DNA of 61,443 nucleotides from NCBI GenBank assembly GCA_002382755.1, contig DFZT01000053.1, positions 1-61,443 of the forward strand, written 5' to 3'. This document shows positions 7,103 through 10,312 of the stretch, piece after piece (position 1 is the first letter of the stretch; every line of letters starts with the position of its first letter). Origin of the DNA: Firmicutes bacterium UBA4049 (GTDB taxonomy: Bacteria; Bacillota; Desulfotomaculia; Desulfotomaculales; Nap2-2B). The translations under genes and the position numbers were made by a program. Under the pieces are notes generated by a model that saw nothing but the letters and a program-made list of their open reading frames with translations, had not been told where the DNA came from and did not search any database.

Positions 7103-7131
7103 TTGACTATGGAATCCCGGTATGGTAAAAA
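7103..7131 (+). promoter_or_regulatory. Promoter for the glutamine-synthetase-like gene
   Basis: TTGACT at 7103-7108, a 17-base spacer and TAAAAA at 7126-7131. It lies upstream of the attenuator hairpin at 7178-7226, so the hairpin falls inside the transcript. Confidence 0.6.
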
Positions 7132-7177
7132 TAAATCAAATACTCTTTTTAATATTTCAACTTAAATAATGACAAAG

Positions 7178-7226
7178 GCGTCTTAAACAGGTCAGAGAGG
7201 ACCTGATTTAAGGCGCTTTTTTGTTT
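7178..7226 (+). terminator. Attenuator-like terminator with an AGAGAG loop
   Basis: GCGTCTTAAA pairs fully with TTTAAGGCGC and CAGGTC pairs with GACCTG (one A bulged), leaving the six-base loop AGAGAG at 7194-7199; a T-run follows. No plus-strand gene lies upstream because asnB is divergent. The terminator therefore sits between a promoter and the gene it precedes, the arrangement of attenuation. The loop has A at position 1 and G at position 4, as in ANTAR-protein target hairpins. A clear second hexaloop hairpin was not found. Confidence 0.7.
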
Positions 7227-7303: not shown

Positions 7304-8605
7304 ATGAAGCCCGAAGAAGCGCTGCAGTATATTAAAGACAACAGCATAACCGCATTCCACCTGAAATTCAATCAGATCTCCGGCCAAAATCAGCATCTGG
7401 TGGCGCCGGCCCAGGAACGAAACGCTGCGGATAACACAGCAGCCGGTATTTTTACAAATGGTATTCGCAAAGACAACCTGCTCCTGATTCCAGATCCGGA
7501 TACAGCTGTATTGGATCCCGTCTGCGAAGAGCCTACATTAACAATGATTTGTGATATTGTTGATCCTTTAACTAAAAAACCTTTTCCAAAAGACACTCGC
7601 TATATAGCTAAAAAGGCCGAACAATACCTTAAAGCGACTGGATTAGCCGAAGTATGCTGCTTCGGCCCGAAAGTGGAATATTTTATTTTTGATGAAGCAC
7701 AATGGAATAATAGCAAAGATAGTTTTTTTCCGATTCCTCCGCAAAGCCTGACAAATGATCTGGGCCGGGAGATCATGCTGGCGACAGAAAAGGCGGGCAT
7801 CAAAGGGGAGATGCGTCTTCACGGGACAGTTTCAGGGAAACAGGCAAAGGTCAATATGAAGTTCGGCAGCCTTACCCGAGTAGCTGATCAAATTACGCTG
7901 TATAAATACATCGTCAAAAATGTGGCCAGGAAGCATAACAAATTAGCTACTTTCATGCCCAAACCCCTTGCAGGCGCCGGCGGCAGCAGTATGCATACAC
8001 AGGTCAGCCTGTGGAAAAATAATATCAACCTGTTTTACGACCCTTCAGGGTATGCCCTTCTTTCCAGAGACGCCCAGTACTTTATAGGCGGTTTGCTCAA
8101 ACACGCGGCATCTCTGATGGCTTTCTGCGCCCCGACGACCAACTCATACAAAAAACTTGTCCCGGTTGATCAGGCGCCGGTAAATCTGATTTATTCTCAG
8201 ATCAACAACTCGGCTGCAATCAGAATACCCGTTTACTCCGAAGACCTCAAATCGAAATGGATTGAATTCATGCCCGCCGACTGCTCCTGCAACCCCTACC
8301 TGGCATTCTCGGCCATGCTCCTGGCAGGCCTTGACGGTATACATAACAAAATTGACCCGGGCAACCCCGTTGATCAGGAACTCCATGAACTATCTCCCCG
8401 GGCGGCGGAAAAAATATCAAGACTGCCTGGAACTCTGCAGGAATCGCTGGACGCTCTTGAAAAGGATCATTCTTTCCTTTTCTGCGGCGACGTTTTTACC
8501 CGGGACGTAGTCGATGAATGGATTCAAATTAAGAGAGAAAATGAGATAGCGGAAATTAGAACAAGGCCGCATCCTTATGAATATGATCTTTACTTTGACA
8601 TCTAA
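7304..8605 (+). CDS. Glutamine synthetase type I-like protein, probably catalytically inactive
   Basis: The 433 residues align end to end with GSI: FGPKVEYFIF, FMPKPLAG, NSYKKLVP, SAAIRIP, NPYLAFSAMLLAGLDGI and a C-terminal HPYEYDLY. Against the Salmonella enzyme, as recalled, metal ligands E129, E212 and E220 read K, G and K. Flap E327 is Q, glutamate-binding N264, R321 and R359 read G, K and M, R339 is N and H271 is Q. D50, E131, H269, R344 and E357 remain, and the adenylylation Tyr397 position is His. The fold is kept but the active site is largely gone, so a regulatory or scaffolding role is more likely than glutamine synthesis. It is followed 30 bases later by nadE and preceded by an attenuator. 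Confidence 0.85.
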   Translation: MKPEEALQYIKDNSITAFHLKFNQISGQNQHLVAPAQERNAADNTAAGIFTNGIRKDNLLLIPDPDTAVLDPVCEEPTLTMICDIVDPLTKKPFPKDTRYIAKKAEQYLKATGLAEVCCFGPKVEYFIFDEAQWNNSKDSFFPIPPQSLTNDLGREIMLATEKAGIKGEMRLHGTVSGKQAKVNMKFGSLTRVADQITLYKYIVKNVARKHNKLATFMPKPLAGAGGSSMHTQVSLWKNNINLFYDPSGYALLSRDAQYFIGGLLKHAASLMAFCAPTTNSYKKLVPVDQAPVNLIYSQINNSAAIRIPVYSEDLKSKWIEFMPADCSCNPYLAFSAMLLAGLDGIHNKIDPGNPVDQELHELSPRAAEKISRLPGTLQESLDALEKDHSFLFCGDVFTRDVVDEWIQIKRENEIAEIRTRPHPYEYDLYFDI

Positions 8606-8635: not shown

Positions 8636-10312
8636 ATGAAGATCGCTTTGGCGCAACTCAATCCCATAATCGGTAACATAAAGTATAATGCAGCTAAAAT
8701 CTCGCGGGTAATCAAGATCTGCCGAAACTTTAATACAAACCTGGTAATATTTCCGGAACTGGCTCTGACGGGTTACCCGCCCCGTGATCTTTTATTGCGT
8801 GAGGATTTCTTAAAAGAGACAGAAATTGCTCTAGAGAAATTCATAGCTCCGTACAGCACGGAGGTTGGAATTATTATCGGGGCGCCGGTCAGGGAGAACG
8901 GGAATCTATATAATTCGGCGCTATTTTATGATCGCGGCTGTCTGGCAGGCCGCCAGGATAAAACCCTTCTTCCGGACTACGATGTATTTGACGAAAGCAG
9001 GTATTTCAAGTCGGGTGTTAATCACAAGCCTACTTTGTTTAAGGGGGTCAAGCTCGGGTTAACAGTCTGTGAAGACATTTGGAACGATAAGGACTATTGG
9101 AACAGACATCTCTACCCTATTGACCCCGTTGAAGAACTCATTGAAGAGGAAGCGGATTTGATTATCAATATTTCTGCTTCCCCGTATCATTACGGCAAAA
9201 TAAACCTGCGTCTGGACATGCTTCAAAAAATGGCCCAAAAATATGGCAAAGCATTTATTTATGTGAACCAGGCTGGTGGAAACGACGAGCTTATTTTTGA
9301 CGGGACCAGTATTGCAGTAACTTCGGGCGGTACACTCGCTCACCGGGCGGGTAGTTTTTGTGAGGACCTAATCTTCCTGGAATATGAAAACAATAATATC
9401 GAAGCAAAGAATCTCCACATAACAGGAGAGAATATTTTCCCCGGCTCCAGAAAATACTTTTCTTCCCTTCCTGAAGATATAGGCAATGTCTATCATGCCC
9501 TGGTTCTTGGAATTCGCGATTACTTGTTAAAAACAGGCTTTTCCAAAGCGGTTGTCGGACTTAGCGGGGGAATTGATTCATCGGTTACAGCAGTTTTGGC
9601 CGCGGATGCGCTGGGCAAGGACAATGTGCTGGGGGTGGCGATGCCTTCCGCTTATTCTTCAGCCGGCAGCCTTGCAGACGCCCGGGAACTTGCCAAAAAC
9701 CTCGGTATATCTTACCGGGAAGTTCCTATCCAAAGCGTGTTTACCAGTTTCCTCAGTCTTTTCAACGAAAATGACACGTATTTGTCGGACTTGGCCGAAG
9801 AAAACATTCAAGCTCGTATTCGCGGCAACATTCTGATGTTTATCTCCAACAGGGAGGGTTATCTTACACTGACCACCGGGAATAAATCTGAACTGTCAGT
9901 AGGATACTGTACGTTATACGGGGATATGTCGGGCGGTCTGGCGGTGATTTCAGACGTACCTAAGATAATGGTCTACAACTTGGCTTCATATATAAACCGC
10001 CGGCAGGAAGTTATCCCCGCCTCTATTATTACAAAACCGCCCTCCGCTGAATTGAAGCCGGGACAGGTTGACCAGGATTCTCTTCCGCCATACGAGGCGC
10101 TGGATGAAATCCTCCAGGCATATGTCGAACAGGATAAAACCGCCGATGAAATAGCTGCTTTGGGGTACGATCCCTCTGTTGTCAGGGAAATTATCCGGAA
10201 AGTAAACAAGTCTGAGTTCAAGCGAAAACAAGCCGCGCCGGGCCTAAAAGTAACTTCCAGGGCTTTCGGTATAGGCAGGCGTATGCCCACCGCCTGGCAA
10301 AAAAGCAATTAA
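8636..10312 (+). CDS. nadE: Glutamine-dependent NAD+ synthetase
   Basis: The 558-residue two-domain enzyme has an N-terminal nitrilase-type glutaminase with the triad E41 (FPELALTGYP), K109 (DKTLLPDYDVF) and C145 (LTVCEDIW). The C-terminal synthetase has the PP-loop VGLSGGIDSSV near residue 305 and TTGNKSELSVGYCTLYGD. It amidates nicotinate adenine dinucleotide to NAD+ with ATP and glutamine, the last step of NAD synthesis. The gene lies 30 bases behind the glutamine-synthetase-like gene and is surely cotranscribed with it; all catalytic residues I can identify are present. Confidence 0.95.
   Translation: MKIALAQLNPIIGNIKYNAAKISRVIKICRNFNTNLVIFPELALTGYPPRDLLLREDFLKETEIALEKFIAPYSTEVGIIIGAPVRENGNLYNSALFYDRGCLAGRQDKTLLPDYDVFDESRYFKSGVNHKPTLFKGVKLGLTVCEDIWNDKDYWNRHLYPIDPVEELIEEEADLIINISASPYHYGKINLRLDMLQKMAQKYGKAFIYVNQAGGNDELIFDGTSIAVTSGGTLAHRAGSFCEDLIFLEYENNNIEAKNLHITGENIFPGSRKYFSSLPEDIGNVYHALVLGIRDYLLKTGFSKAVVGLSGGIDSSVTAVLAADALGKDNVLGVAMPSAYSSAGSLADARELAKNLGISYREVPIQSVFTSFLSLFNENDTYLSDLAEENIQARIRGNILMFISNREGYLTLTTGNKSELSVGYCTLYGDMSGGLAVISDVPKIMVYNLASYINRRQEVIPASIITKPPSAELKPGQVDQDSLPPYEALDEILQAYVEQDKTADEIAALGYDPSVVREIIRKVNKSEFKRKQAAPGLKVTSRAFGIGRRMPTAWQKSN

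Follow-up and report, generated by a model that had tools for sequence, protein, structure and literature searches.

The window, a 61,443 nt stretch of contig DFZT01000053.1 from Firmicutes bacterium UBA4049, contains at positions 7304–8605 (+) a gene whose 433-residue product, recognized from its reading frame, its Pfam match and its alignment, is a homologue of the GSI-β glutamine synthetases (GS) that is predicted to be catalytically dead. The explanation that we favour, with a probability of roughly 0.7, is that catalysis was lost before the genus radiated and that the product was thereafter constrained as a non-catalytic protein; the core of this claim, that a dead enzyme has been kept under selection, appears very likely on comparison of the sequences. 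What these sequences document is a loss of active-site residues, common ancestry, a long stem branch, a dN/dS ratio well below 1 in one species pair, and loss of the gene in two sister species. Glutamine synthetase is a classic example of an ancient enzyme, and homologues scoring above a model cut-off are named as active enzymes; the window protein passes the GlnA cut-off, yet it lacks half of its metal ligands. The clade to which it belongs would constitute a natural experiment on non-catalytic roles of the GS fold, having apparently died before the genus split and then been kept in some species and deleted in others.

The gene and its product

The frame at 7304–8605 is intact, with 433 codons and an ATG start, and a GAGGAGG ribosome-binding site is evident by eye. 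The product scores 341 bits with the Pfam profile PF00120 and 30 bits with PF03951, slightly below the cut-off of 33.4 for the latter, and its closest relative of solved structure is 3ng0 (3.4e-117). Homology to GSI over the whole length and an open frame, both proposed in the first-pass annotation, are thus borne out, as is the presence of a glutamine-dependent nadE gene alongside. With the NCBIfam model TIGR00653 (type I glutamate–ammonia ligase, GlnA equivalog) the protein scores 434 bits, above the cut-off of 429, and would therefore be named GlnA. We note that P0003, a database relative, already carries the name type I glutamate–ammonia ligase in its public record.

Loss of the active site

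Residues are numbered here as in E. coli GlnA (L036) without the Met, which we take to be equivalent to the Salmonella numbering. Alignment with this protein recovers all nine substitutions that had been read by eye in the first-pass annotation (E129K, E212G, E220K, N264G, H271Q, R321K, E327Q, R339N and R359M) and adds R355W, R337I, G267S and (Y/F)326D, together with G325V in the flap. The ligands of the n1 and n2 metal ions are presumably E129, E131, E212, E220, H269 and E357, and three of these six are replaced: Glu129 by Lys123 (7670–7672, +), Glu212 by Gly174 (7823–7825, +) and Glu220 by Lys182 (7847–7849, +), the same three replacements being present in all four full-length members of the clade described below. 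E131, H269, E357 and R344 are retained. The Glu flap is degenerate, with residues 284–290 (8153–8173, +) reading KLVPVDQ rather than RLVPGYE (R321K, G325V, Y326D and E327Q), and residues 319–323 (8258–8272, +) read WIEFM rather than RIEFR (R355W and R359M, with E357 kept).

Two loops have been lost in whole or in part. The Asp-50 latch (E. coli residues 48–58) is deleted between Gly53 and Ile54, the latter codon (7463–7465, +) being the first after the gap, and a large part of the Tyr loop is also gone, leaving a shortened Tyr/central loop remnant (7691–7717, +) that has two deletions and is 11 residues shorter than in the other three members. The latch is therefore missing, and N264 of the Asn loop, E327 of the flap and the substrate arginines R321, R339 and R359 are all replaced. 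GSI-β enzymes are characterized, as described in PMC6076278, by a 25-residue insertion and an adenylylation tyrosine (NLYDLP); the insertion is mostly deleted in the window protein and the tyrosine is a histidine, the site reading ELHELS or ELHELP within the clade. Synthesis of glutamine by this protein does not appear credible under the established GS mechanism (with loops as given in PMC6076278), given that the latch, the flap glutamate, half of the six metal ligands and the glutamate-binding arginines are missing. The C-terminal 'thong' sequence RPHPYEYDLYFDI, a feature of the GSI-β dodecamer, is conserved throughout the clade, which suggests that rings may still form; the GS fold would be kept, and the double-ring assembly probably so.

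Two trivial sources of such a pattern were considered and excluded. A shifted register is not a concern because the flanking words TNSYKKLVP, SAAIRIP and NPYLAF show no gaps in the alignment and all four members give the same reading; a sequencing or assembly artefact is rejected on the grounds that the same changes occur in a second genome and in two database proteins.

Relatives and phylogenetic position

Four full-length dead members were found: the window protein (identical to P0002), the database proteins P0003 and P0004, and a gene in G002, a genome of the same genus as that of the window (G000); the G002 gene matches record DMZI01000027 of Desulfotomaculum sp. UBA7919. They are 86–92 % identical to one another. 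The first-pass annotation had asked whether orthologues would carry the same substitutions, as expected of a pseudoenzyme, or random ones, as expected of decay, and the answer is largely the former: nine replacements (K129, G212, K220, Q271, K321, Q327, I337, W355 and M359) are identical in all four members, and K217 is likewise fixed, with variation at positions 264 (G/S/D/S) and 339 (N/G/S/S). A search with a profile of the four members revealed no fifth among the best 120 of 8000 scored matches, nor did a profile search add further dead members from 113 genomes of the order. Of these 113 genomes, 23 have a match at E≤1e-80; 21 of the loci are canonical GSI-β, retaining all of the checked residues that fall within the locus (the G103 locus is a fragment); both dead loci among the 23 belong to the genus of the window.

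In the phylogenetic tree the dead clade is nested within canonical GSI-β proteins of the Desulfotomaculales, with support values of 97/98 and 96/94 for the enclosing groups, although its exact sister is weakly supported (90/63). This nesting and the TIGR00653 score both indicate descent from the GSI-β clade. The stem of the dead clade is 0.91 changes per column long, as against 0.04–0.09 for its tips. The parental lineage, exemplified by the canonical GlnA proteins of G005 and G008, is about 62 % identical to the window protein over aligned positions and has the same nadE neighbour; it retains every checked residue and the loops, whereas the window protein appears to have lost catalysis.

The first-pass annotation had likened the protein to vertebrate lengsin. 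Lengsin has the GS fold without GS activity, and we take PDB entry 2j9i, listed as glutamate–ammonia ligase domain-containing protein 1, to be this vertebrate lens homologue of GS. It matches the window protein at only 3.4e-15, the top matches being bacterial GSI-β proteins, and orthology to vertebrate LGSN finds no support, the window protein being placed among bacterial sequences in a tree that did not include lengsin. The comparison is therefore fair as an analogy but does not extend to lineage: lengsin is a distant, eukaryotic sequence from another GS branch, and the two losses are independent.

Conservation relative to canonical GSI-β

The changes were compared with a set of 140 canonical sequences (137 search matches, G005, G008 and E. 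coli), in which 196 positions are at least 98 % conserved. In all four dead members 62 of these 196 are changed, 19 of them by deletion, and a further 19 conserved positions are changed in some members only. For an enrichment test, 15 positions were taken as ligand positions; 10 of these 15 are changed as against 33 of the 162 remaining positions, with deleted ones excluded (P=3.3e-4). None of 16 individually checked positions deviates in any of the 140 canonical sequences, apart from Ala at 265 in 11 of them; position 337 lies outside these 16 and belongs to the set that is at least 98 % conserved. Four active-site loops also hold a disproportionate share of the changed positions: counting deletions, 28 of the 50 conserved positions within these loops are changed as against 34 of the 146 elsewhere (Fisher P=3.7e-5). 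The loop ranges are from PMC6076278 with a 10-residue offset derived here, and the adenylylation loop is excluded. Alteration of 62 of the 196 conserved positions in all four members, with this concentration in active-site loops, is not attributable to chance. The long stem could represent a phase of rapid change directed at the active site, in which the latch would have been deleted along with much of the Tyr loop, and three of the six metal ligands and most glutamate and ATP contacts replaced.

Selection and decay

Between G000 and G002 the dead GS has a dN/dS of 0.169 (bootstrap range 0.119–0.240), a value that derives from a single species pair. For the same pair the neighbouring genes give 0.171 (amtB), 0.150 (etfB), 0.128 (asnB), 0.114 (the N-terminal part of nadE), 0.099 (etfA), 0.069 (an M48 peptidase) and 0.056 (PII), so that, of the eight genes, the dead GS is among the most relaxed, yet its ratio is far from 1. 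The two genes differ by 134 bases and 53 amino acids, with no stop codon; 500 neutral simulations with 134 differences gave 90.9±5.0 amino acid changes with a minimum of 76, and a mean of 3.5 stops, with 14 of the 500 runs free of them. As many as 18 of the 53 changes fall within the first 66 residues, and the N-terminal part that bore the latch is therefore looser than the rest. Because the substitutions common to the clade arose before G000 and G002 diverged, the constraint acted on a protein that was already inactive. The claim of a bacterial pseudoenzyme is accordingly supported, with the key substitutions fixed in four members, catalytic residues lost, and purifying selection seen in the one testable pair.

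The gene has not fared equally well throughout the genus. In G001 it survives only as scraps that contain a stop (by eye) and in G003 as an 88-codon C-terminal open frame; these two genomes are sisters (99/99), and the deletion ends of their remnants differ. The dead GS is thus dispensable in at least one lineage. The G003 fragment has a dN/dS of about 0.21, from which its truncation looks recent.

These remnants with their different deletion ends, the extra 11-residue loop deletion in G000 and the variation at positions 264 and 339 are what would be expected if the gene were a useless relic in slow decay, its frame open by chance and in the course of being purged from the genus. We regard this as improbable, however, given the dN/dS of 0.17, a number of amino acid changes well below the neutral minimum, the lack of stops, the four full-length members free of frame breaks, and the low ratio in even the G003 fragment. 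The rate of divergence argues in the same direction: the dead GS is 87.8 % identical between G000 and G002 as against 89.4 % for asnB, amtB, PII and part of nadE joined, and the two genomes are separated by about 0.18 in the GS tree and by about 0.12 for the neighbour genes, such that the dead GS is only slightly faster.

The nadE neighbourhood and leader

The nadE gene (8636–10312, +) lies 30 bp 3′ of the dead GS and encodes a glutamine-dependent NAD synthase of 558 residues. It appears to be an inherited neighbour, since nadE is present inside the fetched flank (up to 1.5 kb) at four of the 21 canonical GSI-β loci of the order, including those of both genomes of the neighbouring genus; the dead GS thus appears to have died in place, and an ordinary GSI-β gene beside nadE would have been its starting point. 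In G002 (L037:8715–9296, +) nadE is interrupted after 193 codons, of which about 184 are homologous, and the dead GS upstream is intact, while G001 and G003 keep a full nadE with their remnants of the dead GS. We note that the G002 truncation is seen in one assembly and may reflect an assembly join. G000 and G002 each have a further, weaker NAD-synthase match (37–38 % identity), and none was found in G001 or G003.

The first-pass annotation had suggested that the protein senses glutamine or serves as a scaffold for NadE, and both suggestions are weakened. The position of the dead GS just upstream of nadE behind one leader, and the recurrence of nadE near canonical GSI-β loci, are consistent with such a role. 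The adjacency is older than the loss of activity, though, and either gene is found without an intact version of the other: G002 keeps the dead GS with a nadE of 193 codons, and G001 and G003 keep nadE alone. Loss of R321, R339 and R359 argues against glutamate or glutamine sensing in the old pocket, from which the flap glutamate and the latch are also missing and in which positions 264 and 339 vary among the members. We therefore consider a glutamine sensor or NadE scaffold highly improbable.

Folding identifies a hairpin with a T tract (7177–7225, +), resembling an attenuator or terminator, between a weak promoter-like match at 7103–7132 and the dead GS. The hairpin and T tract recur in all four genomes examined from the genus (the loop is AGAGAG in the window), with z values of −5.8, −5.5, −4.0 and −3.6; in each case at most one of 200 shuffled sequences folded as well. 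A scan for consensus terminators did not list the 7177–7225 hairpin, and matches to Rfam elements in the leader were confined to two below threshold. The consensus scan gave 10 promoter-like sites in 3.6 kb as against 6.3±2.5 in shuffled sequences, and the match at 7103–7132 alone is thus no evidence for a promoter. The conserved hairpin suggests that the operon of dead GS and nadE may be controlled by attenuation.

Elsewhere in the window, the segment 304–1981 (−) contains a T-box leader (1697–1981) followed by an IS91-type transposase gene (304–1623). DNA in G002 matching the T-box region (91.6 % identity) precedes a leuA-like gene; leuA was not found in the window.

Possible roles

The genome of the window has two GSI-α genes, one with all checked residues and the other departing only at positions 264 (Pro) and 271 (Asn), as do its relatives, so that glutamine synthesis is covered. 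A PII gene and amtB lie about 2–4 kb from the dead GS. Our preferred guess, a tentative one, is that the protein would act by contact within nitrogen regulation, as a partner or decoy of the GSI-α enzymes of the cell or of PII. In the emptied site, Lys123 and Lys182 may supply the positive charge once provided by the metal ions; in the E. coli numbering, the lysines at 129, 217 and 220, near the retained E131 and E357, could replace the charge of the metals. A more specific version, which seems unlikely, is a metal-free regulatory subunit in which lysines in place of metal ions lock the fold, and which would join or cap active GS rings or titrate PII and so tune nitrogen assimilation. We know of no other bacterial GS pseudoenzyme under selection, and such a subunit would, if true, be the first; no report of a bacterial GS pseudoenzyme was evident in the open-access literature searched.

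The lysines might instead belong to a remodelled pocket that takes a ligand or substrate other than glutamate, in a re-purposed enzyme or binding protein. Fixation of K129, K217, K220, W355 and M359 in all four members, while the former ligand positions 264 and 339 vary, would fit with this, as would the retention of E131, H269, E357 and R344. Nonetheless, we think it very unlikely: both elements that close the GS site, the Asp latch and the Tyr loop, have been deleted (the latter in large part), each of the metal sites is incomplete, and there is no recognizable catalytic set. On the favoured explanation, the history proposed above would end in normal constraint on a non-catalytic protein.

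Other glutamine synthetase-like genes

A second GS homologue without catalytic residues is encoded in the same genome. This degenerate GSI paralogue, here termed GS3 (L047:8586–9896, −, on contig C88 of G000), adjoins gdhA and a gene for an ANTAR regulator. Among 31 GS3 sequences, E327 is lost in all, E357 in 30, and R321, R339 and R359 are kept in all, although these counts are partly circular in that the sequences, one per genome of the order, were chosen for residue deviation. Among the 120 database relatives listed, chosen by similarity only, 105 lack both glutamates, 12 lack E327 only and three keep both, and the three arginines are kept in 119. GS3 also keeps Asp-50, and 29 GS3 sequences form one branch of the tree apart from the dead GSI-β, making it a separate clade that retains the substrate arginines and the latch aspartate but has lost E327 and, in most members, E357.

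At 29 of the 31 GS3 loci the immediate 5′ neighbour, no more than 350 bp away, is a match to an ANTAR protein, the exceptions being one locus cut by an edge and the odd member G039. In the receiver of the ANTAR protein of G000, a Glu (by eye) occupies what we take to be the position of the phospho-accepting Asp. The residue pattern of GS3, opposite to that of the window protein, is the one that a sensor would be expected to show, and GS3 is possibly a sensor of glutamine or glutamate that controls an antiterminator, in a layout resembling the NasS–NasT pair as described in the abstract of PMC3795266. No work on GS3 was evident among the open-access papers listed. Since the GS3–ANTAR pair, with arginines kept and catalytic glutamates lost, contrasts with the dead GSI-β, the comparison suggests that this order has made non-enzymes from glutamine synthetase at least twice. 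Contig C28 of G000 encodes a further GS-like protein of 437 residues (L048:5845–7158, −) in which the metal ligands are kept and E327 is replaced by Phe; it is located among genes that by eye are nitrogenase-like.
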